DNA of 64,000 nt, taken from positions 187,581,276 through 187,645,275 of the forward strand of contig NC_134087.1 in the NCBI RefSeq assembly GCF_000715075.1, written 5' to 3'. Every line of letters starts with the position of its first letter. Position 1 is the first letter of the stretch. Positions 21,927 to 59,913 of this stretch are shown here, piece after piece. Under the pieces are notes generated by a model. It ran no database searches. It had not been told where the DNA came from and worked only from the letters and a program-made list of their open reading frames with translations. Source of the DNA: Nicotiana tabacum. Taxonomy: Eukaryota; Streptophyta; Magnoliopsida; Solanales; Solanaceae. Position numbers and translations under genes: made by a program.

Positions 21927-21931
21927 GGTAT

Positions 21932-22491
21932 TGTTTAACCAAAAAATCTGAGTCTTTGATCAAAGCTAAAAAGAAATTCGGGTTACTGATAATCAGGAGA
22001 CAAAAATAAAATATTTTTGTGAATGATGGTAAAGCAATAAAAAATTTTGTATTTCAGTAAGATTCCAATAGTATTCCTTGTCCCTACAGATGGTGAGTTC
22101 TTCTCCTTTTATAGCTAATCCTAGGAGAAGATGTAATGTCTTTGTCTTAATGAGGCAATTATGAGCAATAAATGACATTAAAAGAAACGTTACACAATCA
22201 TTTCTTTTTAAATCAAATATTCTAACGTATTTGATATTTAATGCTGTATTTAAACTCTTTTACGTCATCAGATTCGTATCTTCAACTTCTTCCGATCTTC
22301 GGTCTTTAGATGACTTGGATAGGTACGAGACTCGTACCTATTTTAGTAACGGTCCGCACCAATGTTGCTTTCTTTTTCCCTTATCTGTTGTCACCCGTGC
22401 CTCTTGGCTATTTATTGTGTTTTGACCGTTTGACCAGTCCACGTGTCATGCCACGTCACCTACAATGTAAATTCAGTTTTTTCCCAATACA
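21932..22491 (-). repeat. 3' LTR of the Tat element
   Basis: The 560 bp direct repeat reads TGTTTAACC...CCCAATACA on the plus strand and matches 35130-35689. It contains GGTACGAGACTCGTACC, a 17 bp inverted repeat, at 22322-22338. Most differences from the other LTR are transitions. Confidence 0.95.
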
Positions 22492-22496
22492 GATAG

Positions 22497-22510
22497 TCCC
22501 CCCACTTTCC
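22497..22510 (-). other. Polypurine tract of the Tat element
   Basis: The minus-strand sequence GGAAAGTGGGGGGA lies five bases inside the 3' LTR, the normal place for plus-strand priming of an LTR retrotransposon. Confidence 0.75.
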
Positions 22511-22873
22511 ATTTATTTATCAAGTAAATAATTGGGAAGTGGATCTTCGTAAAAAGGGAATTTTTGCCGTAATTAATATTATGACAAATACTGACGCTTC
22601 AATTGTCCCTTCCATTTAATGTTTTACATACGTGTCACCTTCTGATTGATTCTGCAATTCTACCCCTTTTTTTGAGACTTCTTCATTCACACTATTCACG
22701 AAATGATAGTTGCCTTTATTATAGGCTTTCCTTCATTGCACTTCTAAGTTTGACGGTTGTCATTATAAGCATTTTTAACCCTCTTTCGTTTACCTCCTTC
22801 TTCATAGATCTTCAACAATCAATTTCTTACTTACTTGTATTTTCTCTCCCTTTTGGTACATCCTTCTTCAACA

Positions 22874-25731
22874 ATGTCATCTCCAAACCCCAACCCTAGA
22901 AAAGTTTCAATTCTCGATCACTTCCCCAATTCCCCCACAAGACATAGGAGAGGCAGAGGAGGTAGGCTTCGGAGCTTGGGCCTAGGGTCCGCTCGTGATG
23001 GTTTATCTGGTCCTGCTTCTTCTTCTCTTAGTATCGGGAGTTCTATTCCGAAGACCCCTTCTTCTAAAGGTAAAGAAATCATTGATTCTTCGCAAGAACC
23101 TTTAGTCGATGAAATTGTTCCGAGTGATTTGTCTTTTGGGAGTGATAGAACGTCTCTTCAAAGGCAAATTGTAAATTTAGAAAAAGCTGACACTTATCCT
23201 TCATTAGTACCCGAGCTTACAATTCCTACCATCAGAAGGGATTGTAACTTGAGCAATAGTCTTCGAATGTCAATTCCTTCCCCAAATCAGAGAATTTCTT
23301 CCTTTAGAAATGGTTACTCTTTTGTTTATACTTACCCATTTACTTTGGGTTTTAATCCTCCGGTTGACCCAGTCATTATTAGTTTTTGCCATTTCTTTAA
23401 AATCTGTTTGGTCCAAGTCGGTCCCCTAGTGTGGAGAGCAGTGGCTTGTCTGAGGTACTTATATGCCAAAGCCAATGTCGACTTCACCCTTTCTCACCTT
23501 ATTCATTTATACCATCCCAATTTAATGCGCCATGGGGTTTTTACCTTAACTGCAAGAAGCAAAAAGGTTTTGGTAAGCCCTGAAGATGACAGGGATCGTG
23601 GATGGTACACCCGTTACGTTGTTGTACGTACGGTGGACTTGCTTGGTGAAATAAATATTCCCTTCCCTGAGAAGTGGAATTTTGCACGTAAGTTTCCTTT
23701 TATTTACCGCACCTATTTTTGAGAATTCTGATTCTTTTTCTCACTTCGTCTCTTTTTTGGTTTTTTATAGCAACCATGGGAGATGTGGAACTTATTCCTG
23801 ACTTCCGTGGTTGGGTAGATTCAATTTTGAAGATTGCTCCTAAGGATCAAAGAACCTGGGAATCAACTTCATCTTTACATGGCTGGAAGGTGAAAACACA
23901 TGGTATGTCTCTTTTTATATGTTTTTTTTCCTTTTTACATGTTAAGCACCTTTTTCTCAGTGTTGATTATGTATCCTTCTTTTGATCAGGATTTGGTGTT
24001 AGAGGAATGACAGCTGAAGTAGCTATGGCCATTCGCATGTCTGCTAATGCTGCACTTGATTTGAACAAGGCTCGAGCTTCGCTTCCCAAAAGGAAAGCTA
24101 TAGGAGAAAGTTCTGAGAATGAGGAAGAGGAAGATACCTCTTTAATTACCAGGCCAAGAGTTAGGAGACGAGTCATTAATAATGATAAAATTGAAGATAC
24201 CCCTGCTCAAACTTCATCCACCGAGCCTGTTTTGATTCATTCTGACGAGGACACCGTGCTAAAAGATACTAATGAATTAATTCAACGTCTTTTTGATAGT
24301 GGTTTTGAGAGTGGCAAGCTCGGCCCTGTTTTTGATGAAGCTCCTTTCTCCTCATTCGTTCCTATTTCCTCCATTCCTTTGCCAGTTTCAACTGCACATG
24401 TTTCCGTTCCTGTATTGGTTTCTTCATCTTCTCCTTCCATCCCTTCTTTGACTCCTATGGATCCTGCTGTTGTGTTTACCTTTTCTACTACTCCTCCTTC
24501 CATGGCTCCTCCTCCCTTCGTTCAACATACAGAGGCGGGTTCTAGCAGTAGAACCATGGCTACGAGAAGTGTTACTCTTGAGATTCCTGCCAACCATAGC
24601 CTTTTGAGAAAGACTGGTAGAGCTGATGTTTGGCTCGAGCCTCTAATCGGTGATATTGAAAAGAAGAAGATGGAGAGCCACAACTGCCTGACTCTGATGA
24701 ATGACATAGTTCATTCTACTTTGAAGGTATTTTTCCTTTACCAACAAGTTTTTTGTTTTTAATCTACAAATCCTCATTTCTATGAGTTGTCTCTGTAGGC
24801 TAACCTCATTGGTACCGAATTGATGGGAAGAATTTCTCTTTTGGAAAGAAAAACCCGTGAGTCTGAAAAATCCATCCATGAGGCCGAGGAAATAGCCAGT
24901 GGAGCCCAGCTTGAAGCAGCTAATTGGAAAGAACAGTTTGAGAATGCTCATGGGACCATAGAGGAGTTGTAAGAAAGTAGAAATCTCCTAGAGCAGCAAA
25001 AACGTGGTTTGACTTCTGAACTAGCTACTGCCAAGGCTTCTTCAAGCCAATTTAAAAGAGATAAAGAGCTTTTGGAGTGCTCATTGTCAAAACAACTATC
25101 AAAGGCTAGTGAAGAAGTCAGGGAGCTTAAGGCACTTTTAGCCAAGAAAGAAGAATATGCAGGAGAATTAGTGCAAAGCTTGACTCAAGCTCAAGCTGAC
25201 TTACAGACCTCCTCTGACGAGATTCGAGCTTTGAAGAGTTCTCATGCCTCCCTTGAAGCTTCCCTTGATTCCCATTTAGCTGAACATCAAATATTGAAGA
25301 ATGATCTTGCTATGTGGGAAAGGGAGTATGGACTTCTGGAGGAGAACTTCAACATAGAGGTGAGTTGGGCTTTCCTGAAATCTCGCCGTGATGCTTTGAT
25401 GGAAGCTGCTCAGGAAAGCTTCGATTTGCAATCTGAATTAGCCAAAGTCTTAGACACTATCGAGAAAAGTCAACAACCTGTTGATACTCCTTCTCCTGCA
25501 CTTGAAGCTCCTGGAACGGAAGAGCTTTTAAATGAAGAAGTGGCTACTGCAGCAATTGAGGTTGCAATTCCGGCTCCCGAGGGTGAAACTTCTATGACAC
25601 ATTCCATGGAAGCTGAAGCTCCTGTGATTCTTGCTCCCCTCGGTGATTTCAACATTACAAGCCCAATTAAAATTGCTCTTGAAAATGAAATTGCAACTTC
25701 TGATGTTCCAACCTCTTCAGTGACTAGCTAA
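22874..25731 (+). pseudogene. Four-exon ORF antisense to gag-pol inside the Tat element
   Basis: Exons are 22874-23687, 23771-23902, 23990-24726 and 24799-25731. All have GT/AG borders and compatible phases, totalling 872 codons. It runs opposite to gag-pol and lies between integrase and the 3' LTR. The N-terminal third (about 140-310, with YPFTLGFNPPVDPV, VGPLVWRAVACLRYLY, HGVFTLTARSKKVLVSPEDD, GWYTRYVVV and FPEKWNFAPTMGDVE) resembles the 'putative gypsy-type transposon' domain of plant retroelement proteins. The middle is acidic and Ser/Pro-rich with a basic patch (RPRVRRR). The C-terminal 240 residues form a predicted coiled coil. A TAA at 24970-24972 breaks exon 4 in frame, so I call this copy a pseudogene. 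Function is unknown. Extra ORFs here, sense or antisense, are known in Tat elements. Confidence 0.8.
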
Positions 25732-26788
25732 AAATGAAATATTTTTATTAATTGGTGGTGTTATCCCTTGGCAACTTTAAGGGATCTTTTGACGAAGTCT
25801 CCAGTTATCATAATGGGGCATTTGTAAAAAACAAATATTTTGCTGACTAAGTTTGTACTTAGTCTTTTATATTAAGAAGTTTTTATTGGTACTTCCGTAT
25901 ATTTTATTCTTGCCCATTTATCTAGAACTTATAGAATAGCTTAGCATTTTTATCCTTTTAAAATGCTTTATGATTCTTCTCATGGATTATCAACATGAGG
26001 CTTATAAAAGAGGGCCCTTTTATTTTATCGACACTTAATGAAAAAGACGTCTCAACTTCATAATGGTGTTATAATACGATGAAAGAAATAGGAATACACA
26101 CGTTTTGTATGAAACAACTTTGGCAAGTTTCTATTCATGAACTTTAACAAGTGTTTGACTATTACATGTATTACAATACATCTACAACTTTCTCGTAACT
26201 ATTTTTTTTTGTAACAGATTTGTACATAACATAGAATAAACAAGGTTTTTCTTCATAATCTGTTTCAGTACATAGTCATGACCCTATCTTTATATATTAA
26301 GAAGGGTTTGAGAGGTGACTTTGTTTATGAGTTTGAGAGATGACTCTGTTGTTCTCATGAATGCTGAAGACTTCGTAACTTTTTCTCAACACTTGTCTCT
26401 TTGTGGCCGACTTTTGTTCGATATTCGTATCTGCACTTCTACACATATCTGTTTACAATATGTAGTCCCCCAAGTGTTTGAGCGGTGAAGTATGAAGCCT
26501 CGAGCACTTGTTTATTTCTTTTACTTTTGCCCTTTTCCTGAAACAGAAAAATATACGGGACTCGGAGGTGCGATTATAGATGAAGACCGCCTAACTCGTG
26601 TGTATTTCCATCAGATTAATTGTAACCCTGGGCTGGGAATTTAAGAATACTCCATTTTGCCTTGCAGGTTGTGACTCATCATTTGGCACGAGTTAGGGTA
26701 TTTTGCCTAGCATCTAAAATCGTTAGTAAAACATTAATAATTCAAGAGAGAAATTTTAACATGGTGATACCTGACCGTAGGTACTTTC
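25732..26788. other. Non-coding part of the Tat element
   Basis: This lies between the end of the antisense ORF and the end of integrase, where transcripts from the two strands would converge. It contains no long ORF. The stretch TATCTTTATATATTAAGAAG (26287-26306) is AT-rich, but no terminator can be assigned. Confidence 0.5.
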
Positions 26789-27931
26789 TCAAAAGTAATA
26801 TCTTTTTAAATGAACGGCATTCCAATGTGAGGGTAAAACTTTGCCGTCCATTGTCTCCAACTGGTATGCTCCTTTTCCCGCAATGTCACGGACTTTGTAC
26901 GATCCTTCCCATGTTGGACTTAGCTTTCTTGAGTTAGCAGCCTTTGCAGATTGGAACACCTTTTTAAGCACGAAGTCCCCAATTTTGAAAAATCTGAGGC
27001 GTGCTTTCCTATTGTAATATAGTTCAATTACTTGCTTTTGTACTGCCATTCTTATCAATACAGCTTCTCTTCTTCCTTCAAGTAAATCAAGGTTGACCCA
27101 AATCTCTTCATCATTAGATTCCTCCGTTGCATGATCGTACCGTGTGCTTGGCTCACCTATTTCAACTGGAATTAAGGCTTCCGCACCATAAACCATTGAA
27201 AATGGTGTTTCTCCAGTGCCTGTTTTGGTCGTTGTACGATAAGCCCATAATACTCCAGGTAACACCTCAGGCCAATTACCTTTTGAATCCTGTAACCTCT
27301 TCTTCAAGTTGTTGATAATGACTTTGTTAGTAGATTCCGCTTGTCCATTACCTACTGGATGGTATGGCGTAGACGTTATCCTTTTGATCTGCCAACTTCG
27401 AAGAAATTCTGTGATTTGAGCTCCAATGAATTGTTGTCCATTGTCACACACGATCTCCTTTGGTGTTCCAAAGTGGCATATTATATTTCGCCATATGAAG
27501 TCTTTAACTTCCTTCTCTCGTACCTGTTTAAATGCCCCTTCTTCTACCCATTTAGTGAAATAATCTGTAAGTACAAGTAGAAACTTTACCTGACCTTTTG
27601 CTTGTGGAAGTGGACCTACGATATCCATTCCCCATTTCATAAAGGGCCACGGGGCTATAATAGGATGTAGTAACTCAGCTGGTCTGTGCATATTGTTGTC
27701 GTACCTTTGACATTTATCATATTTGGACACGAAACTGGTTGCTTCTTCTTCCATCTTAGGCCAATAATATCCTGTGCGAATTAATGTTCTTACCAGTGAC
27801 CGTCCCCTGCGTGATTCCCACAATGTCCTTCGTGCACTTCTCTCATCACATATTCTGTTTGAGAGGGTCCGAGACACCTTGCTAGTGGTCCACCGAACAT
27901 CTTTCGATAAAGATTTCCTTGATATAAACAA
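26789..27931 (-). pseudogene. Tat integrase region
   Basis: The zinc-binding N-terminus spans the frameshift near 27810: HEGHCGNH is upstream in the other frame and CDKCQR is at the start of this one. The catalytic core has MDIVGPL (D), IVCDNGQQF (D) and GNGQAEST (E), the D-D-E triad that joins element DNA to the target. The C-terminal part includes AYRTTTKTGTGETPFSMVYG and ends WNAVHLKRYYF. The core is open, but the ORF start shown is out of frame with the preceding RNase H frame by one missing base in a G run. Confidence 0.9.
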
Positions 27932-28290
27932 TATCGAGCAGCTTTTTTGCGAAGCGCGTGAGCCTTTCCTTTGTCATTAGGCACGGTACCGTGCTGTAAA
28001 AAGGCAACAATTTCGTTTCTCCAATCCCATGTTAAATGATTAAAATTTACCTCGTTTTTATCAGATTTGAGAACGGAATGAAATAAATGTATGACTGAAG
28101 CACTTGTATCGTTTTCTACGTCTGCTGCAGATGCGAGATTAGCTAAAGCATCTGCCTCTACATTCTCATCTCTTGGGATCTGCACTACTTTCCAAGTTTG
28201 GAATTGCTTTATTAACTCCCGTACCTTTGCGAGGTATTCTTGCATTCGCATCTCCCTGGCTGTATAAGTCCCCAGCATTTGATTGACCAC
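27790..28290 (-). pseudogene. Tat second RNase H (C-terminal part) and integrase leader
   Basis: The frame carries VVQIPRDENVEADALANLAS, which ends the second RNase H-like domain with its last conserved Asp. Next comes the linker KKAARYCLYQGNLYRKMFGG and the first half of the integrase zinc finger. It is in the same frame as the domain upstream but separated by TAG at 28318-28320. It ends early at TAA after a one-base loss. Confidence 0.85.
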
Positions 28291-28317
28291 GAGTTGAGAA
28301 TCACTCTTGATTATAAT

Positions 28318-29094
28318 CTATGTTATACCGAGTTCTCGTGCCAATTCTAAACCTGCAATTACAGCCTCATACTCTGCTTCATTGTTAGTTATAGAATGAC
28401 ATTTTATAGCCTGTCTAATAGTCTCACCCGCAGGTGGTACGAGGACTATCCCTAGGCCTGCCCCTTTTACATTAGATGAACCATCAGTGAATAAAACCCA
28501 AGTCCCCGGGTTTGCACCATTAAAAACTAGTAATTCTTTTTCTGCTTCTAAATGCATCCCCTGGCTAAAATCAGCCACGAAATCAGCTAGTACTTGAGAT
28601 TTTATAGCGGTCCTGGGTTGATAAACAACTTCGTATTCACTTAGTTCTATATCCCATTTTGCTAATCTTCCTGAAAGTTCGTGTTTATGCAAAATATTTC
28701 GAAGCGGAAAAGCAGTAATTACATTAATGGGATGACATTGAAAATAAGGTCTTAATTTTCTAGATGCCATGATCAAAGCTAATGCTAATTTTTCTAGCTG
28801 TGGGTATCGTGTCTCAGCATCCAATAAGGACTTACTTACATAATAAATAGGAGATTGTTTACCTTGGTACTCGCGGACTAAAACAGCACTCACCGTGACT
28901 TCAGATACGGCCAGATAGATGAGAAATTTTTCCCCCACCTTTGGTTTTGCCAATAACGGTGGTTTTGACAAATAAGCTTTCAAATTTCTAAGGGCTTGTT
29001 GACAATCTTCATTCCATTCAAAATGATCTTGCTTTTTGAGTGCAAAGAAAAACTTAAAACACTTTTCTGAGGATTTGGAAATAAATCTCCCCAA
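28318..29094 (-). pseudogene. Tat RNase H and start of a second RNase H domain
   Basis: The first part (FLIYLAVSEVTVSAVLVRE, SPIYYVSKSL, YPQLEKLALALIMASRKLRPYF) is the degenerate RNase H next to reverse transcriptase. It is followed by a second, archaeal-type RNase H with LFTDGSSNVKGAGLGIVLV and TNNEAEYEAVIAGLELA. Doubling of RNase H is the mark of the Tat lineage. The frame joins reverse transcriptase only through a one-base frameshift near 29120 and ends at an in-frame TAG. Confidence 0.88.
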
Positions 29095-29111
29095 AGCTGC
29101 AATTCTTCCTG

Positions 29112-30086
29112 TTAATCTTTGTACTTCCTTTTATTAGTAAGGATATCAGGGATTTCTTCTATTGCTTTGATCTGAGAAGGATTGACTTCAATACCACGGT
29201 TAGAAACAAGAAAACCCAAAAACTTACCTGATGCAACTCCAAAAGCACATTTTTCTGGGTTGAGTTTCATATTAAATTTTCGCAAAATTTCAAATGTAAC
29301 AGATAGATGAGAAATATGATCATGAGACTGCTGGGTTTTGACGAGCATATCGTCTATATATACCTCCATTGTTTTCCCTAAATGTTCTTGGAACATTTTG
29401 GTGACCAACCTTTGATAGGTTGCCCCAACATTTTTGAGACCAAAGGGCATTACTTTATAACAGTAAGTTCCCCTGTCTGTGATGAAAGAAGTTTTTTCTT
29501 CATCACCAGGATCCATTTTAATTTGATTATATCCCGAGTATGCATCTAAAAAACTTAAAAGTTCATGACCTGCGGTTGCATCAATTAGTTGGTCTCTATG
29601 CGGTAAAGGAAAAGAATCTTTTAGACAAGCTTTGTTTAGATCGGTATAATCCACACAAACGCGCCACTTATCATTTTTCTTGGGTACGACCACCGTGTTA
29701 GCTAGCCAATTAGGATACTTTACCTCACGGATCGATCCGATTTTTAATAATTTTTGGACCTCATCCTGAATCACCTGGTTCTTGAAAGCACCTTGCTTTC
29801 TTTTCTTTTGCTTTATTGATGTGAAAGAAGGGTACTCATTGAGTTTGTGAGTCATCACATCCGGTGGTATCCCTGTCATATCAGCGTGGGACCAAGCAAA
29901 GCAGTCTAAGTTAGCTTTTAAAAATTCGATTATCATACCTCGCATGTCTAAGCTTAAATTGGCTCCGACATAAACCTTCCGTTCAGGCCATTGCTCAAAT
30001 AATATCACTGCCTCGAGCTCTTCAATTGTAGTTTTGATGCTTTCATTTTCTTCAGGTTCCTGAATTGTGTCAGGCCTTGAGTCCAA
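29112..30086 (-). pseudogene. Tat reverse transcriptase
   Basis: Motifs in order: WRVCVDYTDLNKACLKDSFPLP, LSFLDAYSGYNQI, YKVMPFGLKNVGATYQRL, and the catalytic MEVYIDDMLVK, then KCAFGVASGKFLGFLVSNRG. This enzyme copies the element RNA into DNA. The catalytic aspartates are present. The frame continues in phase from protease across a TAG at 30150-30152 and breaks at a frameshift near 29120. Confidence 0.93.
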
Positions 30087-30149
30087 ATCTGTCTTTTCTT
30101 GTTCAGCTGAAGTTTGATCTTTTTTACCTTCAACTGTTTCCTGTAATTG

Positions 30150-30602
30150 CTATTTTTCTTTATTTACGGTGCTCGAACTTGTTACAGCGTTGATACTTCT
30201 ATCCATCTGCTGATCCCCACGAATTTGGCAAATTCCCCATGGTGATGGGAATTTAATAACTTGATGTAGAGTTGATGGGACAACATCCATATCGTGTATC
30301 CATGGTCTCCCCATGATCATATCGTAGGCTATTTCCATATCAACTACCTGAAATTTAGTTTCTTTAACAACACCCGTAGCAAAAGTTGTTAGAATTACCT
30401 CTCCTTTTGTTACCACACTTGAATTGTCGAAGCCTAACAAGGTGTGCGCCTTGGGTATCATTTTGTCTTCAGCTTGCATTTCACGTAATACCCTTAGTAG
30501 TATAATATTTACGGAACTCCCTGGATCAATCAAAACTTGTTTTACATTAGTATCATGTACAAGTAAAGATATTACCAGTGCGTCATTATGTGGAGTTGTC
30601 AC
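30150..30602 (-). pseudogene. Tat protease (retropepsin-like)
   Basis: The sequence VKQVLIDPGSSVNIILLRVL holds the D-x-G-S active-site motif of aspartic proteases, with Pro in the middle position as is common in plant Tat elements. AYDMIMGRPWIHDMDVVPST closes the domain. It would cut the gag-pol polyprotein. It is preceded in the same frame by gag and a TAA at 30642-30644. Confidence 0.85.
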
Positions 30603-30641
30603 TCCTTCGGTATTTGCGTCATCGAACGAAATACTTTCATT

Positions 30642-31099
30642 TTATAAGACCTGCCGCACCCGTTTCCCGTGTGTAATTGTTACCTTAGAGACCTTGTTGG
30701 AGGCTGTGTAGGTTATGCCGTAAATATCTTCTCCCCCACTTATCACATTCACTGTCCTCTTGGGTGAAGGAGGTTGTGGTGGCTCTTGCCTAGTTTTCAT
30801 ATAAGCTTGTTTTCCTTTCTCGCTAAATAACTCAGTGAGGTACCCTTGCTTCAATAGATGATCCACTTCACTCTGCAAGAATCTACATTCTGAAGTTTTG
30901 TGCCCGTGATTATTGTGGAATTCGCACCAATGATCTGGATTGCGTCTATTTGGATTTGACCGCATCTCTTTTGGCCACCGTACCTTATCTCCCATGCTTC
31001 TTAAAACAGCCACGAGCTCGGAGGTAGAGATATTAAAATTATATCCGCCGAATTGTGCCTTTAAACTTCTGTCATCATCTCGTGATTCTTGTCTGTTCC
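30642..31099 (-). pseudogene. Tat gag, C-terminal part (after the nested insertion)
   Basis: From RQESRDDDRSL onward it includes the Cys/His motif CEFHNNHGHKTSEC and PKRTVNVISGGEDIYG. If the nested LTR is removed, the frame joins exactly with the upstream gag part at RNDRN|RQESRDDD. The first residues of the open frame, up to 31112, lie inside the nested LTR and do not belong to gag. Confidence 0.85.
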
Positions 31100-33792
31100 T
31101 GTCACGACCCAAACCGAAGGGCCGCGACGGGCACCCGGTGCCTTACTCAACCGAGTACCAACGTAACATATCTTTCTTATCATGTTATCATGAGTAAATG
31201 AGCTAGAAAACTCGTCCTGAGATAACAAGAATAAAACATAAGGGAATAGTCAACATATGAAGACCCAACATGATATACAAACTAATATATGTGACATACG
31301 GGCCTATAAGGCCGACATGACCATTAGTAAACTCGAAACATAGGCCGACAAGGCCATACAATTATCCATACACCTGACATATGTCTACAAGCCTCTAAGA
31401 GTACATAAAATCATAAAGGTCGGGACAGGACCCCGCCATATCAATCAATACATATCCAAAGCATACTGACCAAATAGGCAACTCCAGAGCAAGTGGAGTG
31501 CACCAACACCTTCGCTGAGCTGATAGCCTACTAGGAGGACTGTCAACCTATCAATCGGGACCTGCGGGCATGAAATGCAGCGTCCCCAGGCAAAAGGGAC
31601 GTCAGTACGAATAAAGTACCGAGTATGTTAGGCAGGAAAGCATAAACAAGAACAGTAATGTAAAGAGAGAGATAAAGGAGATACAACCTGTAACATCAGA
31701 GTGCCTCTGGGGGTTACTGATATGAAATGCATAATACATATATATACATAAACTTTTTAAAACATTCGCCTATGTGGGCATCATCATCATATCGTACCCG
31801 GCCTCAAAGAGGACTCGGTAAAAGCGTACCCGACCATCATAAGGTTCGGTAGAATCGTACCCGGCCACGTGGAGCTCGGTAAACCCAACTGATCAGTGGT
31901 TGCACAATAGGTGCCGTACCCGGCCGACTATAGCGCGGCTCGGTAGAGTAAAATAGATACTATATATAATGCATGCTAGACTCATGGAATCATCTTCTAA
32001 ACCTTTTGGAGTGACTTAAGAACATTATGGACATCCCTACCATCAATATGAACCTTAGTAGGATTTAAGGATCATACACACTTGTTTAGAATAATTTTAT
32101 AAGGAAAGAACAACATGGACAACCTTAGTTGCTAGGAGTAGAGTCATTATGAAATAGCGTATCGTTTATGTTCATTTCATTTTAGACCATGCCAAAAGAA
32201 AGAAGAAAGTGCCTTAACATACCTTAAACCCGTTGAGTCCTTAATCCCTTCCAAGCAACTCTTCAAACAAGTCAACTCAATCTATCATAGTATAAGGAGA
32301 TTCAAAATCAGTGCTGAGCAAAGGCTAAGTCTATAACTTAAGCTAGTAGCTCGTTTACGTAAATTTGGGCAGCATCTCCATTGTAACAAGGGCCTCCTCC
32401 AATACCATATACCAACAACAATGACCAGAGCAATCCATCAATACATAATTATCAATATCAAGACACCATATAACCACAACAAGTCACAACTACATTACGA
32501 CGAGCGGCAAACTCCGATTGGAATCCGTATACCCCTTATCAATCCTTATAGACTTCTTACTTCAACATAAAAGTATCATTAACTTGATAATGAAGTCATT
32601 AATCAATGATTCCAGCCTTATACCATATATTTATAACAACGAAAATAATCCACAACTTCAACTATCCCCAACTAGCAACTTTATTCACTAGTTCAGGTCT
32701 AGCCCATCCATTTAACTTAATCAATATCAAAATAACCTTAGACACAAGCAAGAACACAATATACATACCTCCTACAGTAACTTCAAGTCAAAATCCAAGT
32801 TATATTCATTTTACAACAACCCTTAATAGCAATACAACACCATAGAAGTGACTTAAGCTAGTCCAAGTATTATCTTATAGTTTATCATCCTAACAACTTA
32901 ACCAACATACAAGCAAGCTTAAGCACAATTAGTAGGTTGTTATACTCACCTTATACAGCAGCAACAACTTGGAATTTCATCCAAATACAGCCCACAACAA
33001 TCCTCAATGACAACACAACCTCAAAGAGGTGTTGTTCTTCACTAGAACTAAGTTTTGATGTTGAAATATGGTGTAATCACTTTGGAATCACTTCAAACCC
33101 TTGTGATATATGTTTAGGAGGGTTAGGAGAAGTTTGGAGATGAACTTTAGTTGAAAAATGAGCAAAAATAGGCGTCCAAATCGTTTATAAATTGAAGTAG
33201 GTCAACCACCGCCTAAGTGGGTCCCATTGGGAGCTGCTTGCGCGGTCTCGCGAAAATGCGAATATCTCTCTACTCCGATGTCGTATTGACAAACGGTTTA
33301 ATGAGTTAGAAACTAGACTCGTAGACCTTCAATTTGGTAGGTAGAACACCCCATTATTCCAAGTATATTTGGAGAAATTCTCAGATACATTTGACCTAAA
33401 TTTCAGCAAATTTATGAATGTAACTTGTGATGACCTTTGCCAACTCTTGTTCCACAACTTGCTTGCCTTCAAAATGTAGAAAATGAATATCATACGACTA
33501 AAATAACTCATAGAATAACCTCCTTATCATGTTAATAACCCTAGTCTCACCCCAAAGTACATGTTATAACATTCGAAACTTGTCGACTTTCGACGAAACT
33601 TATTTTCTTCAATTGGTTTAGCTTCTAAGATTTCCAACCCTCTTGGTAATCGTTATTCATGATCTTAAATATTTGTAACCTCCAAGGTAACATTATTAAC
33701 TTACTTTATTTGCTTCCAAATAGAATCTCATTTTCGAGCTTACATCAATGACTTACGATGTACTCTCACATATGAAAACTTGGGGTGTAACA
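31100..33792 (-). mobile_element. Solo LTR of another gypsy element nested in Tat gag
   Basis: The 2693 bp block has TG...CA ends (TGTCACGACCC and GGGGTGTAACA on the plus strand). It is flanked by a perfect GTTCC duplication (31095-31099 and 33793-33797). It has no gag-pol and no internal copy of its own ends, so it is one LTR left by recombination. On its minus strand it contains TAGGCTATCAGCTCAGCGAA and GTGTTGGTGCACTCCACTTG, familiar from high-copy Solanaceae gypsy LTRs, probably of the Tekay/Del type. A cluster of GTACCCGGCC...CTCGGTA subrepeats lies at 31793-31946. Confidence 0.9.
31793..31946. repeat. Short GC-rich subrepeats inside the nested LTR
   Basis: Four imperfect copies of a 30-50 bp unit built on CGTACCCGGCC...GCTCGGTA lie in tandem. 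Such arrays within LTRs often lie near regulatory sequence, but no function can be shown here. Confidence 0.65.
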
Positions 33793-33797
33793 GTTCC

Positions 33798-35061
33798 GAT
33801 CATTCCTGAATTTTGAAGAAGAACCAGAGTCCCTGTTCCTCGATTTTTGATCATATTGCTGGCTATCTTGTTTCGACCGTGGGTCTTTTCCTGCAGGTCC
33901 CATATATGGATCGTACCTGTTTTTACCTGATCTTTTTTCGGTTTCTGATCTTCGGGGACCACCCCTTTCTTCATGATGAAACTTAGGTACGGTATCTTCT
34001 TCAATTCGCAGCTTCGTACTATACCTATTGTAAACATCATTCCACGTGGTTGCAGGAAATTCTCGAAGGCTTTCTTTGAGTCGTCTCGTGGCTTCAGAAC
34101 TTTTGTCATTTAAATTACTTGCAAAGGCTATTGCAGCCCAGTTGTCAGGCACACGGGGTAGAGTCATTCTTTCACGCTGGAATCTATCAACAAAATATCT
34201 AAGCAACTCTGAATCCCCTTGTTTGATTTTGAAAATATCTTCCATTCTTTTCTAAACCTTTTGTGCTCCCGAATGTGCTTTAATAAAAGAATCTGCAAGC
34301 TCAGCAAAAGAATTAATAGAATTTTCAGATAAAAGAGAATACCAGGTTAATGCACCCTTGGTGAGTGTTTCTCCAAATTTCTTGACCAGTACTGATTCAA
34401 TTTCTTGTTTGGTCAAGTCGTTGCCTTTCACGCCTGTTGTAAATGCAGTCACGTGGTCACGTGGGTCTGTAGTACCATCATATTTCGGGATGTCAGGCAT
34501 TTTAAACTTTTTCGGAATTGGAAGGGGAGCAGCACTTGGCTTCCATGGTTGTTGTGAGTATTTGTCCATGTCTACTCCTTTTATTACAGGCGGAACTCCA
34601 GGGATTTGCTCAATACGCTCATTTTGTTCCTTAATCTGTTTCTGCAAGGTTAGTACTAAATTTTGCAAATATGAATTATTTGAATTACCTGGTCCCCCTT
34701 CCTGTGGTTCACTGGGGGTTGCTCCGTTTCCAGAATTATCAAGACCAGAACGGGGATTCTCCAATGTATTATTATTAGGAGTTGGTGTGGGTGGTGCAGC
34801 AGGCAATCGACTAACTAGAGCCTGAAGAGCTTTGCCGACCTGTGCATCAATTAGCTTTTATAAAGCTTCAGTTGTAACTCCTTCAAAGTGTTCAGATTGT
34901 TCTTGTTGATCAGCACGGGATTCAGTAACAGGAATGCCTTCACGAGATTGACGTGGTGAATCTGGAGGAGAGGGAACTACGTCACCTTGATTTTGATGGA
35001 TTTGATTTTCATGGTTTCCCAATGTGTTATTACTGTTATTGTCGGTGTTGTTGTTTGACAT
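33798..35061 (-). pseudogene. Tat gag, N-terminal part
   Basis: It starts at ATG 35061 (MSNNNTDNNSN), shortly after the primer-binding site. A Pro/Gln-rich head is followed by the gag core: FKMPDIPKYDGTTDPRDHVT, FADRFQRERMTL-like text reading YFVDRFQRERMTLPRVPDNW, and SSEATRRLKESLREFPATTW. In-frame stops lie at 34858-34860 (TAA) and 34252-34254 (TAG). The gene is split by the nested LTR after FRNDRN. Confidence 0.85.
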
Positions 35062-35106
35062 GGTGACGACAATGGACAAGATATAGCTTAAAAGAAAAGA
35101 TTATCA

Positions 35107-35126
35107 GATTCCCGGTAACGGAACCA
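35107..35126 (-). other. Primer-binding site of the Tat element
   Basis: On the minus strand TGGTTCCGTTACCGGGAATC begins three bases inside the 5' LTR. It starts with TGG as expected for pairing with a tRNA 3' CCA end. It is close in form to the tRNA-Asp type sites used by Tat and Athila elements, but I cannot fix the tRNA. Confidence 0.75.
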
Positions 35127-35129
35127 ATT

Positions 35130-35689
35130 TGTTTAACCAAAAAATCTGAGCCTTTGATCAAAGCTAAAAAGAAATTCGGGTTACTGATAATCAGGAGACA
35201 AAAATAAAATATTTTTGTGAATGATGGTAAAGCAATAAAAAAAAATTGTATTTCAGTAAGATTCCAATAGTATTCCTTGTCCTTACAGATGGTGAGTTCT
35301 TCTCCTTTTATAGCTAATCCTAGGAGAAGATGTAATGCCTTTGTCTTAATGAGGCAATTATAAGCAATAAATAACATTAAAAGAAACGTTACACAATCAT
35401 TTCTTTTTAAATCAAATATTCTAACGTATTTGATATTTAATGCTGTATTTAAACTCTTTTACGTCATCAGATTCGTATCTTCAACTTCTTCCGATCTTCG
35501 GTCTTTAGATGACTTGGATAGGTACGAGACTCGTACCTATTTTAGTAACGGTCCGCACCAATGTTGCTTTCTTTTTCCCTTATCTGTTGTCACCCGTGCC
35601 TCTTGGCTATTTATTATGTTTTGACCGTTTGACCAGTCCACGTGTCATGCCACATCACCTATAATGTAAATTCAGTTTTTCCCAATACA
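35130..35689 (-). repeat. 5' LTR of the Tat element
   Basis: This is the 560 bp partner of 21932-22491, about 98% identical. It would hold the promoter for gag-pol. Relative to the other LTR it shows several A or T in place of G or C, as expected from decay of methylated cytosines. Confidence 0.95.
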
Positions 35690-35694
35690 GGTAT

Positions 35695-41000: not shown

Positions 41001-42108
41001 TACACTATCAGAAGTTAAGGTTGACCAGACTATGTTTTTACTTGAGTAGAACAGATAATAAGTTATTCCGGAAGTGATGTCTAGAATTTATCAAATTATT
41101 ACCATTGTTGTGATTATGTGCTCATGATATCTGTGATATTCACGGTTCAGGAAGTTTAGATTGAGCTCCATTCTATCAAAAGTTTCAAGTTAATGGACAT
41201 GGTATAGACAAGGAAATAATACTGTTTCCTATGTGACTTGGAAATTCGAAATGCAATATTATGAACATGGTTGTAATTCTATCATTCAATTGGACCTACT
41301 CTGCCGGAGGTGCCATGCTATCTGTTTTTGTTCGTTTATACTAATGAATCCTATCCACGCTGCTGAATAGGCGAGGAACATCTCGTTGATATGTCCAATC
41401 TGCTTGGTTATCATTCTTTTTAGTCTGATTTCTTGCTTTTGTTGCTGACTTTGTTTTGGACTGAGTGGGCAGAATGTTTTCTCTAATACTTAACATGCCA
41501 TTTTTGGTGATACTGTGTAGTTGTTGAACCACCAAATAAGTTTCTGTTTTCTCCAGGAAGAGATTATATTTACCACTTAGTTTTACTTGATGCATCATTC
41601 AATTTTCCAAGTTAGTAATGTGCAGTTTGATTTGAGAATTGGAGCCTTTCCCGCTTCTTCTATCATTTTCCCCTTTTCTTTTGGAGTTAGCAGTTTTGGG
41701 AAGGGTAATTCTATCCCAGGCCAATTACCAAAATCTGTACGCTGTCCAATTAACAGTAAAGTTTCTATAACGTGGCTATATTTAGCGAAGACAGACTCTA
41801 CCTTCCTGGTTTTCCTTTATGATGTGTACTATATTTATCATCCCTTTAACAATACCATGTCCATGATCAATATTTTATGTTTTTGTAACTTGTATTCATT
41901 CTGGACATATTTGCTTGCTGTCTTCTTGTGTTTTAGAGTTTCATGTGATGATGATGACGAACGAGCAAGCCGTAGGGTGTACAGAGGATGTTCGCGTTCT
42001 CCAACGTGTAGAGGTTGCACTTCGTGTGTGTGTTTTGGATGTGAAATATGCCGTTTCTCAGACTGCAGTTGCCAGACTTGCATTGATTTCACAAGGAATC
42101 ACCCTTAA
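38045..42108 (+). CDS. ULT1: ULTRAPETALA-type SAND-domain regulator, three exons
   Basis: Exons are 38045-38219, 39809-40115 and 41937-42108; phases join to 217 residues. The start MFSEEELREISGVKRGDDYV and the text CGCTSHRYGDAVAKLRVFSS, KHSGRETSRKWKNNIWV, CHRDEFIRCTDCNKERRFRL and GCTSCVCFGCEICRFSDCSC match ULTRAPETALA proteins. These trithorax-group factors work in the nucleus to control shoot and floral meristem size and help relieve Polycomb silencing. The SAND domain covers about residues 25-125 and a Cys-rich B-box-like motif lies at the C-terminus. At 217 residues it is somewhat shorter than Arabidopsis ULT1, mainly through a shorter linker before CHRDEF. Introns are large (1.6 and 1.8 kb). 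The symbol follows the family; ULT1 and ULT2 cannot be separated here. Confidence 0.92.
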
Positions 42109-43008: not shown

Positions 43009-46000
43009 TCAATAACGTTGCGCCCTCCCTCTCCCTCTCCCACGGCCAAACCGGCCACCATCACCCCGACCATTTCCTCTCCGGCCACCACCAAAATGAT
43101 TGCCTTGATTGAAGTTCAGACAACCATTAGTATTGCCTGGAACAATAGCAGGTGGATGTGAATTGTTGTCTCCTGTTTCTGGTCCATTCACAGGAACTGC
43201 AGCAGGTTGTTGTGAATTGCTGCTGTCTCCTGTTTGTGGTCCAAAACCACCACTACCCTGAAAATTCGCATTCCAGCCACCAACAAAATGATTGCTTTGA
43301 TTGAAGTTCAGAGAACCGTTAATAGCAGGAACTGCAGCAGGTTGTTGTGAATTGCTGTTGTCTCCTGTTTGTGGTCCAAAACTACCACCAGCCTGAAAAT
43401 TTGCATTCCAGCCACCACCAAAATGATTGCCTTGATTGAAGTTTAGAGAACCGTTAATAGCAGGAACTGCAGCGGGTGGATGTGAATTGTTGTTGGCTAC
43501 CGCTTGTGGTACGTTAACTGGTATCTGACCTCCCAAGTTGAAAGGTAAATGTGCCAGTTGGCCTGGTAAGCCCCCCAAAGCAAATGGTGGTTGATTGAAA
43601 CCATTTTGTCCGAATGCCGGCCAAGGTGCAAACGCTTGCCCTGTGCCAAAATCTGGCTGTAAAAACGGCAAGATAAAGTTATGAGGAGGTCCTGGATTGA
43701 ATTGCTGTTGTAAAGGTACTCCACTAGGCAAAGGCATTTGAAACATTTGCTGAGGATGACATTGTTGTTGCCATGGCATGCCAATTGTTGGCAAAGTATT
43801 AGGTAAGCCCATATTCCCGGGCTGCTGATTTGGGATTATATTAGTCCAAACTCCACTTGAAGGAGCTGCAAAAGCAGGGGCCTGTTGCGGATGATGAAAT
43901 GAAGGAACTAAGTCAGTCCTATTGCCTGACCTCTGTCCTTGGGAAGAACCAGTAACAGGTGGGACAAGATTTTGACTTTGCTCGACTGGTGGCTTCATAG
44001 CTTGCTCACATTTCGAGTTCTGAGATCGATTTCTGAATTTCTTTTTGTCCTTCTTCTTGTTTCCAACTTTCTCGTCATTTGTGCCCCTCTTTTTCATTTT
44101 CAGTATTCTCTTGTACTCAACCTCCTTCTCATCATCTGAAAATTCTTCATCCGTGGGCACCTCTTCATCATTTTCACCAGATGCATCATACCCTTTCTTG
44201 TAAAGACTTCCATCGATAAGGACATGATTAGCAAATTCTGGGACAAGAGAGATCAAAGTGCCTTGGTTGATTTCAGCGGGGACTTCGCTCTCACTATTGT
44301 ATCTTACAATGTAGTAGGGGTTCTTGACAGGCCCAAAAATCTCGTCCACTATACCCAGTGGGGATCTGCTTTCTGTTATCCAAAGAATAGAACCATCACT
44401 AAGAGGATTATGCTTCTCCACCCCTTCTACAACAACTTGGGCACCAAGAATCTGTATTGCACCACATAGAGATCAAATAAACATTTGAATTAAGAATCTA
44501 AAATAATATACAAGCAGGCAGTGTCTGTTCTTGGCCCATCTGCCGAATATAATTACGACGCTAGCCCAAATACACAAAACATATACACTGATTATGTATA
44601 TTATATGTATATTTATACTTAATATATAAAACATAGCTATTATTTTTTAGGGCGGCCCCTCTTTTTTTTTTTTTTGTTGTTGCTTTAAAATAAAATGATC
44701 AAATGCAGTGAGAAATACAATGTGATTTGCTTTTTTGTTTTGTTTTGTCTTACCGCTGAAACAACTCCAACAGGCAGGGTCTGGTGATGCGGTAGCAAAG
44801 TTGCATTCACTATCGGAACCGGGGGAAGAACCTGCAAATGCATGATTAACAAATGACTTAATATTTGCATGCCAAAATGATCATTTGTGAAACAAACCCA
44901 TATTAGTATTCTTAGCTGCCTCGTTTTTTTGTTTGGAAGACACATTTCTTTAAGACTGTTATTATGTCTTCAACTGGATGACCAAGTGAGGAAACATAGA
45001 GAGCAATATTATAGTGTCAATAACATGCAAAACACTAAACAAGTCTACCAGACGATGACAATTAAGTCGACGGATGCAAGTCAGAGTTTACTGAAATGAT
45101 TTATTCAGTACTTACACTTAAAAAAACTGACTTTACCAACCCCCCACCCCAAGCTCTTTCTCCCTAGTTCCTATCTTCTGTCTCCTCTCCTCATTTTTCA
45201 TTTGCTGTCTCTGATATTCTTCATACCTAGGTTCTTTCTTTCTATCTGGATCTATAATGTATGCGCAGAATCCTCTAAATATCACAACTTATACCAGGGG
45301 GAACTGAAGGATGCAGCTTATGCACAAAAGATCTATCACCATTGAACAAGTCTAAGCACTATCAAAATTCTATATGTAAAAGTAGAAGGAAAATTATAAT
45401 CAGACAAACAATTGCAGTCAGCAATAAGTCACAAGCTAACCTCCAGGTCAAAGTACACTACACTGTAAATGAAACATACTTACGTCAATACCACCAAAAG
45501 GAAACTATAACTTGATGATGATAACCACTAGATAAGCCTAAAAACTACTCATTTAAGCCATTCTCCACTTTCTGTATAGCCAAATACTGGGACTTGCCTA
45601 ATGCAGAACATATGTTAACCTCTCAATACGACGAAATGCAAAAACTAGTCAGTCAAGCCCTTTGCCACTTTCTTTATAGGCAAAAAAGTCGGACTGATAT
45701 GCCTAATCCGGAACATATGGGACTGACGAAATGGGTTCAAATGAAACAAAATAGATATTGGGGATTCATTATCCAACCCCAAAATAGATCTGCAGCATGT
45801 ATCCATGGACTGAGGACTTTGTTTTTGCTTCTTTTTTGTTTCCGGTTTTTCCCCCTTTTTGTTGTTTCTGTAAATATAAACCTCAAAGGGCTGAAGACTA
45901 TAACCAAGTAAAGAGTGTCTAGAACAGAGTTATTAGCTTAGCGGCTTACAACAACAACAAACCCAGTGTAATCCCACTAGTGGGATCTGGGGAGGGTAGA

Positions 46001-48419: not shown

Positions 48420-48960
48420 GAAATATCTACAAAACAGACTGTTATTATACAAAAATTATACAAAATAGACTGTCAATATACAATTTATATACAAATAGAC
48501 TGTGACTGTACAATTTATATACAAATAGAGTGTCACTATACAAAATATATACAAAAATAGAATGTCATTATACAAAAAATATACTAAATAGACTGTCATT
48601 ATATAAAATATGCACAAAATAGACTATCACTATATAAAAATATATTAAATAGACTGCCACTATACAATTTATGTATAATTAGCTCTCACTATACAAAATA
48701 TATACAAAATAGACTGTTACTATACAAAAAATATACAAAATAGATTGTTACTATACAAAAAATATACAAATAGACTGTTACTATACAAAAAATATACAAA
48801 ATAGACTGTCACTATACAAATAGACTGTTACTATACAAAAAATATACAAAATAGAATGTCACTATGCAAAAAATATACAAAAATAGTCTGTTAATATACA
48901 AATAATATACAAAAATAGATTGGTATTATACAAAAAATAGGCTGTTATTACACAAAAAAT
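48420..48960. repeat. AT-rich minisatellite, unit about 30-36 bp
   Basis: Repeats of AATAGACTGTCACTATACAA followed by AAAATATACA run for over 500 bp with irregular unit length and scattered substitutions (about 15 units). Confidence 0.85.
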
Positions 48961-53190: not shown

Positions 53191-53296
53191 AAATAGATTA
53201 ACGTTGTGTATCATTACACTCCCATCTTTCTAAAATTCCTTTGTATTCTTTTCTCAAAACCTAACAAAACTTTTGAGAATTTTCCCCCCAATAAAT

Positions 53297-53983
53297 ATGT
53301 CTCAAGATCATCACCAACATCCCCACTTCGCTACTCATACATTACCAAATAATGATTTTCACTTGCGAAGAATGAACCAACTACAACAACCTGATATTCC
53401 ACATGATCAAACAAGTGGAATATCTAATGATAGTACTCCAAACATGTTTGAATATTGGGAAATAACAACTTATTGTGATCTTGATATGGATATAGATGAT
53501 AGCGAGGAACGAGCTGCTTGTTTCATCTGCTGCTTGGAATTTCAGAATGGAGATACATTAGTCACACTTCCATGTAACGATGTGTTTCATTTAGATTGCT
53601 TCAATCAGCGGCTGAGGAGGAGGAGGAATGATTGTCCGTTTTGTAGTACTGAAGTTTTACCCACACACGAAGAAATAATAATAATAGAAGAAGAAGAAGA
53701 AGAAGAAGAGGAGGAGGAGGAGGAGTTCGAGGATGAAGAAATAGAAGAGGAAGAAGAGAAGTTCGAGGTTGAAACAAGAACTTATTATGCTTCTGTAATG
53801 GATATAGATGACGACGAGGAACAAGAAACATGTGCGATATGTTTATGTGTGTATCAAGGTGAAGATACTATTGGCAAACTTCAATGTGGCCATGAGTTTC
53901 ATGTTGGCTGCGTCAACAAGTGGCTGCAGCAAAAGAATGCATGTCCGTTTTGTAGAGCTGAAGTTTTGCCCACACATGACTAG
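53297..53983 (+). CDS. Double RING-finger protein (probable E3 ubiquitin ligase)
   Basis: A single exon gives 228 residues from ATG 53297 (MSQDHHQHPHFATHTLPNND); an upstream in-frame extension lacks its own start codon. RING1 has Cys75, Cys78, Cys93, His98, Cys101, Cys113 and Cys116, but the fourth metal position holds Asp95 where RING-H2 domains have His. RING2 is a canonical RING-H2: Cys179, Cys182, Cys197, His199, His202, Cys205, Cys216 and Cys219. Between them is a run of glutamates (about 131-165). RING domains bring ubiquitin-loaded E2 enzymes to substrates, so an E3 ligase role is likely; the target is unknown. No signal peptide or membrane segment is seen. Two tandem RINGs in so short a protein is unusual, and the halves share TEVLPTHE/AEVLPTHD, pointing to internal duplication. 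Confidence 0.88.
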   Translation: MSQDHHQHPHFATHTLPNNDFHLRRMNQLQQPDIPHDQTSGISNDSTPNMFEYWEITTYCDLDMDIDDSEERAACFICCLEFQNGDTLVTLPCNDVFHLDCFNQRLRRRRNDCPFCSTEVLPTHEEIIIIEEEEEEEEEEEEEFEDEEIEEEEEKFEVETRTYYASVMDIDDDEEQETCAICLCVYQGEDTIGKLQCGHEFHVGCVNKWLQQKNACPFCRAEVLPTHD

Positions 53984-55877: not shown

Positions 55878-56904
55878 GAATTCGATCTGAATTGATGTTG
55901 GATAGTGATTAAAATTAGTTCTTGAGGAGACAACCATGAAAGTGGAAAGAATTTGGTTTTATATACACTGATGGTGTGAAGAATGTTTATACCATTTGTG
56001 TAGTTTGATTAGTTCCAATAGGTTAGCTGCTTCCATTTCTTTTTCTGCATTACCCAACTATACTCAGTATTACCCATCTGCAATTGACTTTTAAGTAACT
56101 TTTATTTTCATTTTTAGTGGATAGAAATTAAACTTAACAGGAAATGTTAAACTTGGCAGTCAATTTGATGGTTTTAGTATAGACGGTTACTATCTGGTTT
56201 GCAGCTTAAACCTTATTAGTTGTGATTATAGAGTGTCAGAGTCTCACATTAGTTGAGGATTTAAGTTGTAATATCTTTATATATTCTTGAACGATTCTAA
56301 CCCCGTATGCTAACTTTTGGAGCTGAGGATTGTTCAAGACTGTATAAAGAGAATACAACTCATAGCCTCAACCAATGTGGGGCCTTGACACCTCCGGTGG
56401 TTTTAGAGCCAGACCCGTCCTTGATGTTGGGTTATCCATTGTTATAGCTAAATGTTATGTTATCCACACTTCAAATATGTAAATGTGGGCGTGCTGGGAA
56501 AGGGTTTTGGGGGGAAGGTGGGAGAGCTGGGCAGGGCGGAGCTAGCATGCGAGATACGGGTTCGGCCCGACTCAATAGCTTTGGTCCAAACATTGTATTT
56601 GTCTTAAGAAATCCATTAAATTTATACAAATTATTAGTTTAGAACCGAATAACTTAAAACGGACTACAATCCTCAACCCATAAACTTCAATTCCCGGCTC
56701 CTCCTCTGGTGCTAGACTCGGACTTTAGCTGAGGGTATGAGTCATAGTCTCTTGGTCCTTAACATTCTTAACCTCATAGACTATCTTTTAGACTTGGGTT
56801 AGGTTCAATGTCTTTTTCTTAGCAGTCTGCTTACATGAGCCACCTTATAGTTGGTTTTGTGTCTCTTTATCTTTGCCTTCTGTTGGTTTGCAGACATACT
56901 GGCC

Positions 56905-59900: not shown

Positions 59901-59913
59901 TGGGCCGCGATAA
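56905..59913 (+). CDS. CC-NB-LRR disease-resistance-type protein
   Basis: One uninterrupted exon encodes 1002 residues from ATG 56905 (MEIVGAVISMIQCFCGETCS). An upstream in-frame ATG at 56851 is less likely because a splice acceptor lies between the two. Order: coiled-coil N-terminus of the RPS2/RPS5 type (to about 165), P-loop GMGGVGKTS (184-192), kinase 2 LLIIDDLWE (about 260), RNBS-B LIITTRS, GLPLAL (about 350), RNBS-D CFLYCALYPEDH, MHD at 479-481, then leucine-rich repeats from about 520 to 930. The tail ends in GGSSGSSSFGPR. Such proteins detect pathogen effectors in the cytoplasm and trigger immune responses; the recognised effector cannot be told. All nucleotide-binding motifs are intact, so it could be functional. 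Confidence 0.95.
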   Translation: MEIVGAVISMIQCFCGETCSHQSISEKCMYMRKPHALANRIEEKMELLKAREEDVRRKLQVEKVWRGMEPKAEVNMWLTNVGKIKSSVACLQEEITKNKSCLNGCCPNYTSRLKLGKHFNKKIKEADRLLAQSIYPDASLVDMMPQRGNILPATSLVGETAQRSLKLVWEYLNDGHTGIIGIYGMGGVGKTSILVAINNRLLRESTAFDNVIWVTASKDSNVQKLQKDIARAVCLSFDEEDDEMARAAQLLEALMRRRRFLLIIDDLWEAFSLEVVGIPSPGYGHECKLIITTRSMMVCRGMETMRDVEVSVLSKEEAYDLFKQKVGDEVLASPRLQAVAEDVAMECGGLPLALVTVGRALRRENDMRQWENALSQLKSAMGRIEGMENRVFTRLRFSYERLKDNVTRSCFLYCALYPEDHHIETEELIKYWIWEGMLDNLGYGESKMLQGKMILDELKNACLLEIGCQEGSLNEFVKMHDLIRDMAIAVTRVNPLFMIRAGSGIRVPPVENEWLVGLERISLMRNDLSTLSFEPRCPQLTTLLLQYNSLSKGILPSFFNHLGSLKVLDLSYTGIARLPESLSNLENLHALLLRSCWNLRYVPTMERLKELRVLDLSSTSIECTPQGMEMLLNLKHLDLSYTTVDGFDIRILGTFRFLEDLLTIGLWQPLMFGLDFVNVVASCTNLANLEANFSTLHDFNRYVLSGHWSMLESFKFCLGYPQSSKLPGKNSVGFFGIHIVEMEAPSWLPTILELAVHECSGITHLPMFIMNASSHLKHCKIKYCDEMEWIITSEWGTFPELELLEIEGLSRLQNICKGIPPAGTLSTLKVLNVTACDNLTTLLPLELVQQLNNLEEIELRSCLMLEEIVTEAESEEVIQENDNEVVLPSLQKLRLVSIPRLRSICRGPMICDSLTTIEVIDCPELEIIPFFLEIRQQLADSLKQIKGSRRWWWTLERNHPIATSLLAPLFKPESAPNEDIRVDSNTINSYGGSSGSSSFGPR

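Follow-up and report, generated by a model that had tools for sequence, protein, structure and literature searches.

Antisense open reading frames (ORFs) that lie between pol and the 3' long terminal repeat (LTR) and carry a Transposase_28 region (TRP28, PF04195) occur in 97% of Retand clusters, where their function is unknown, and some clusters contain SMC-like ORFs at the corresponding place (Vicient 2025, PMC11963269). The accessible text of this survey counts conserved ORFs of at least 600 bp singly, lists several plant orders that do not include Solanales, contains neither the word "intron" nor the word "selection", and has "spliced" in a reference title only. Gene23 of the maize retrotransposon Grande encodes a nuclear-localised protein and has its own promoter; antisense transcription of such regions has been reported for both Grande and Retand, and a search for antisense and spliced transcripts has been advised (PMC7264820, accessible part). 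The order reverse transcriptase (RT), RNase H (RH), second RNase H (aRH) and integrase (INT) is that of the Ogre and Retand elements of the Tat clade, and a plant mobile domain is encoded by 57% of Ogre elements and hence provides no strict criterion (Neumann 2019, PMC6317226, accessible part). The same paper asks if additional ORFs in plant LTR retrotransposons have any role. For one abundant family in tobacco the answer at the level of sequence is clear: the protein has been selected and the splice sites have been kept.

The window, a stretch of 64,000 nucleotides of tobacco DNA, contains a Tat/Retand-type LTR retrotransposon of 13.8 kb on the minus strand (21932-35689), flanked by a GGTAT target-site duplication (21927-21931 and 35690-35694). 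Both LTRs are 560 bp long with TG..CA ends (3' LTR, 21932-22491; 5' LTR, 35130-35689; both minus strand). A polypurine tract lies immediately inside the 3' LTR, and a primer binding site starting with TGG, which we take to be tRNA-Glu-like, is found in the sequence three bases inside the 5' LTR (35107-35126, minus strand). The two LTRs are identical in 551 of 563 aligned columns and show 10 differences, which corresponds to an insertion age of 0.7-1.4 million years at rates between 6.5e-9 and 1.3e-8 substitutions per site per year. Domain matches on the minus strand locate the RT (29112-30086) and the RNase H with the start of a second, Tat-type RNase H (28318-29094), followed by the remainder of the second RNase H and the integrase with a frameshift near 27803 (26789-28290). 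The domain order is therefore RT, RH, aRH, INT, with RH, aRH and INT contained within 29094-26789. On one and the same piece of the polyprotein RT_RNaseH matches residues 55-154 and RVT_3/RNase_H residues 199-257; RVT_3 scores 22.8 bits, above its cut-off of 21.6, and RNase_H 24.4 bits, under its cut-off of 25.8. This second RNase H bears out the assignment to Tat made in a first-pass annotation of the window, its place between RH and INT is that of the Ogre/Retand group, and an antisense ORF between pol and the 3' LTR is a feature of the Retand lineage. Gag-pol itself has decayed by two frameshifts, one near 27803 and one near 29128, and by five stops (those beyond frameshifts left out), and is split by a 2.7-kb insertion with TG..CA ends and a GTTCC duplication (31100-33792, unstranded). 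This insertion is missing in all five related copies checked, and we found no terminal repeats inside it; from its sequence it looks like a solo LTR.

The antisense ORF lies on the plus strand, opposite to gag-pol, between the end of the integrase (26789) and the 3' LTR. It comprises 871 codons and a final stop in four exons with GT/AG borders and matching phases, which reproduces the model of the first-pass annotation. A leader between the 3' LTR and the ORF (22492-22873, +) presumably contains the promoter and 5' untranslated region; no TATA[AT]A motif was found in it. Exon 1 (22874-23687, +) encodes a basic N-terminus and the TRP28 match, exon 2 (23771-23902, +) the end of the conserved N-terminal region, exon 3 (23990-24726, +) a KRK...EEEE...RPRxRRR segment, a low-complexity middle and the start of a coil, and exon 4 (24799-25731, +) the coiled coil and an acidic tail. 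They are separated by introns at 23688-23770, 23903-23989 and 24727-24798 (all +). In the KRK...EEEE...RPRxRRR segment basic clusters flank an acidic run, and the basic pattern KRK..R.R[RC] recurs in 44 of 81 homologous proteins, many of which are partial. A single in-frame TAA at 24970-24972 truncates the window copy's own protein at codon 619. The earlier counts of about 870 codons, one TAA, five stops and two frameshifts were right, but the insertion at 31100-33792 had gone unmentioned. The predicted architecture, a retroelement-specific N-terminal region, an acidic/basic middle and a long C-terminal coiled coil, could be recovered as well, the coil from family matches.

At E up to 0.1, 18 of 39 homologues match TRP28, more than any other family, and 21 do not; the matches sit over the conserved N-terminal region. 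These matches are weak: the window ORF reaches 15.4 bits against a curated cut-off of 26.2, and among 10 copies six have a match (best 21.7 bits, profile positions 6-66 of 69) and four have none, all scores being under the cut-off. The coil gives a weak SMC-like match in two homologues (P0016 and P0042). Weak as they are, these matches, together with position, orientation and sizes, agree with the Retand antisense ORFs as described in PMC11963269: the tobacco ORF is antisense between pol and the 3' LTR and contains a putative TRP28 region, its weakly SMC-like coil has counterparts in the SMC-like ORFs of some clusters, and the LTR of 560 bp and the pol-3' LTR distance of about 4.3 kb are within the reported range. 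Based on these sequence features we consider it highly probable that the tobacco ORF is of the TRP28/Retand type. It differs in that the coil and TRP28 belong, as exons, to a single gene rather than being ORFs counted singly, and in coming from Solanales, an order outside those listed in the accessible text. Grande gene23, compared by description only, is likewise an accessory gene in antisense orientation, which occupies a long internal region on the 3' side and has a nuclear protein and its own promoter (PMC7264820, accessible part). Ogre elements share the Tat clade and the second RNase H between RH and INT but differ by the plant mobile domain in their ORFs (PMC6317226, accessible part), since we saw no match to this domain (PF10536) in the window ORF or among the 25 families, of 26 in all, listed for the 39 homologues. 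The structure predictions were weak (mean pLDDT 44.7 and 59.2, with the coil outside any model), and no fold model gave a convincing match to a solved structure. The profile search and structure prediction proposed with the first-pass annotation yielded TRP28, under its cut-off, and no informative fold. Judged by sequence, the tobacco ORF is most likely one more case of a known but poorly understood kind of antisense ORF, consistent with the initial remark that extra ORFs are known in Tat elements without an established function (PMC11963269 and PMC7264820, accessible parts).

A first homologue search with the ORF returned 42 proteins, 40 of them named Nicotiana and one potato; taken together, the searches reached Nicotiana, two Solanum proteins and some contig-derived proteins, and no relatives were found among viral contigs. 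By regular expression, 28, 32 and 16 of the 81 proteins, many of them partial, cross the first, second and third exon junction (J1, J2 and J3), which is weak evidence for splicing since most are gene predictions. Stronger evidence is provided by P0069, a protein from short contigs with "lgn" as its only source label, in which J1 and J2 are both crossed with no intron; of the other proteins with this label, P0050 and P0064 continue into intron 1 and P0080 into intron 2. If the "lgn" proteins come from unspliced gene calling, P0069 would derive from spliced RNA. In P0011, P0046 and P0047 the first intron is partly or fully open in frame, so that a retained-intron protein from some copies is possible. 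The first part of P0079 resembles the ORF and its second part, as judged by eye, the opposite-strand gag-pol piece at 30642-31112; this protein may reflect an inversion, a strand switch or a misassembly. P0018, P0039, P0045 and P0055 are deposited under host-like names (flocculation protein FLO11-like, NETWORKED 1B-like, CROWDED NUCLEI 2-like), a warning that such retrotransposon proteins sit in public databases as apparent host proteins.

To follow the gene model through the genome we used a 21-base exon-1 pattern, which with up to 3 mismatches matched 2,034 sites in 4.0 Gb, compared to 33 for the reversed pattern. Twenty other copies were fetched from the top of this listing, 15 of them from a single contig, and each was aligned to the window; the presence of exon 1 was thus a selection criterion. 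Eight further identifiers (L001-L008) duplicate the places of L009-L016 and served for the first BLAST only. The copies form groups A (window, L014 and L018), B (six copies), C (two) and D (seven, with a poorly aligned C-terminal tail), plus three partial copies. All four exons could be aligned in 17 of the 20; L020 and L027 align over the first exons only, and L021 does not align in exon 4. These three were left out of group means and trees, and L009, L010 and L012 also out of the trees, which contain 14 copies and the window. L019 was left out of segment means; only part of its pol was obtained. Domain values and bootstraps derive from nine of the 20 copies and the frame control from six.

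GT..AG was retained at all three introns in 17 of 20 copies, and of the individual splice-site bases 202 of 204 were kept in the 17 copies of groups A-D and 27 of 36 in the partial copies. The other intron bases were kept at 94% in A, 72% in B, 54% in C and 46% in D, the most distant group, and introns are more diverged than exons among the copies. With these data at hand, it is very probable that the antisense ORF is spliced as drawn, in four exons.

The first-pass annotation had suggested that the ORF matters to the element, and its dN/dS among related copies points the same way. Between subfamilies the ORF gave dN/dS values of 0.16-0.25 (Nei-Gojobori, 113 pairs) and pol 0.04-0.20; ratios that involve group D are rough, because dS there approaches saturation (1.9-2.0), while those for A-B and A-C (dS 0.5) are sound. 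Bootstrap intervals were, for example, 0.18-0.27 for L028 and 0.19-0.30 for L013, and L028 differs from the window at 110, 90 and 222 first, second and third codon positions. Comparisons inside a group gave higher ratios for A, B and C (0.35-0.81) and a wide spread for D (0.17 to 1.20), as expected because copies decay after insertion. Across the protein the coiled coil is the lowest region with 0.06-0.15 (five copies; group D gave no estimate); against seven copies of B, C and D the TRP28 region gave 0.13-0.20, the N-terminus 0.20-0.39, the middle 0.36-0.44 and the tail 0.31-0.59. Four of the five wrong frames of the exons gave 0.76-1.39; the fifth, a minus frame whose third positions coincide with those of the ORF, gave 0.30-0.35, and a noncoding control stretch in arbitrary frames gave 0.36-1.92 with few differences, some values being well below 1; values near 0.2 were limited to the annotated frame (six copies for each control). 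The ratios between subfamilies, the frame test and the regional constraint together argue that the ORF is protein-coding and that its product was of importance to the source elements. We regard it as almost certain, as far as sequence comparison can tell, that this is a selected protein-coding gene; purifying selection has acted along the line of source elements, most strongly on the coiled coil and the TRP28 region.

The openness of the window copy carries less information. It had been argued that the frame stayed open while gag-pol decayed, but this contrast is not significant. In 10 relatives of groups A-C, we counted 19 stops or frameshifts in 25.7 kb of ORF versus 43 in 34.2 kb of pol (p=0.054), and for stops adjusted for opportunity the p-value was 0.44. 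Based on the 10 LTR differences, neutral decay since insertion predicts 0.7-1.0 stops in the window ORF, and one is observed. The open frame is thus a legacy of the source element and tells little about the window copy itself. The idea that pol breaks were inherited by several copies and ORF breaks were not (four shared break events in pol and none in the ORF in groups A-C) was dropped, as the contrast stands at p=0.054 with the pol frame adjusted for the frameshifts of the window. In group D shared break events occur in both ORF and pol, partly due to bad alignment, and there the pol frame is uncorrected.

For groups A and B, silent sites have diverged by 0.51 in the ORF versus 0.20 in pol, with a step at about 25.7-26.0 kb. 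Noncoding sites follow the same pattern, the groups being far more dissimilar on the 3' LTR side, up to about 25.9 kb, than past 26.0 kb. The spacer beyond the step (25961-26788) is 94% identical in both B and C, compared to 77 and 59% for the introns, 70 and 88% for the leader, and 77 and 91% for the spacer adjoining the ORF in B and C, respectively, before the step. Four trees gave the same group order, with the difference that in the pol tree L014 leaves group A and group B nests among A. These patterns suggest a module swap between element families, and the ORF and the 3' LTR may have moved together, in part independently of pol. Extended to Retand at large, the antisense TRP28 and SMC-like ORFs could be exons of one ancient spliced gene, whose best-conserved functional part is the coil and not TRP28, and which shares with the 3' LTR a history partly separate from pol; we offer this generalisation tentatively, at somewhat short of an even chance.

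How this protein may work can be proposed from its parts. Basic clusters flanking an acidic run, the coil as the most constrained region, and the nuclear location of Grande gene23 (PMC7264820, accessible part) point to a nuclear oligomer on DNA or chromatin. Transcription would start at a promoter of the gene itself, close to the 3' LTR; the protein would enter the nucleus by way of the basic clusters, the TRP28 region is predicted to bind DNA or chromatin, and the coil would drive oligomerisation. By these means the protein would regulate expression of the element itself, most likely keeping it active. As a whole, the explanation that a Retand-type retrotransposon here carries an accessory gene that is spliced, runs antisense to gag-pol and encodes a nuclear oligomeric regulator of the element is the one we favour with some confidence; that regulation of the element's expression is the nuclear task is a possibility to which we give a little less than half of our credence.

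The strongest competitor, still an unlikely one, is a role after reverse transcription, discussed in the accessible part of PMC7264820, in which the protein enters the nucleus with the cDNA-integrase complex and aids import, chromatin choice or integration. The basic clusters, the weak SMC-like match of the coil and the constraint on coil and TRP28 region would fit equally well. A product of the opposite strand, however, would need its own promoter and would not be made along with Gag-Pol, and no partner is known. The first-pass annotation had offered a coat, a regulator or an anti-silencing factor. The latter two are possible roles; nothing was found in favour of a coat: the position between pol and the 3' LTR and a long coiled coil could suit a coat or envelope-like structural protein, yet the antisense orientation, the low-complexity acidic/basic middle and the absence of any envelope or coat family from the Pfam matches seen for the window ORF and the 39 homologues make it very improbable. 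A role of the antisense transcript itself, as double-stranded RNA or by transcriptional interference, would accord with the antisense transcription of Grande and Retand (PMC7264820, accessible part) but leaves frame-specific constraint, conserved splice sites and the greater divergence of introns than exons unexplained, and we consider it more doubtful again. Least probable of all is that the gene is a mere passenger or was captured from the host and does nothing for the element, since the host-like names of several deposited proteins are outweighed by the excess of exon-1 pattern sites over the reversed pattern, by the four exons in 17 of 20 fetched copies, and by dN/dS well below 1 between subfamilies. 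For the nuclear regulator as we propose it, a full gene model is now at hand for expression, localisation and testing.

Outside the element the window contains several host-type ORFs. Near it lie ORFs with an ULTRAPETALA1 zinc finger (41587-42108, +), a Gar1/Naf1 domain (43009-44421, -) and a RING finger (53273-53983, +); the Gar1/Naf1 ORF includes a tandem repeat of 135 bp (43191-43510). An open ORF of 1020 codons with NB-ARC and leucine-rich-repeat domains (56851-59913, +) represents a disease-resistance-type gene. A tandem array with a 31/61-base unit occupies 48421-48939, and its short unit is present in about 13 copies within 48421-48820.
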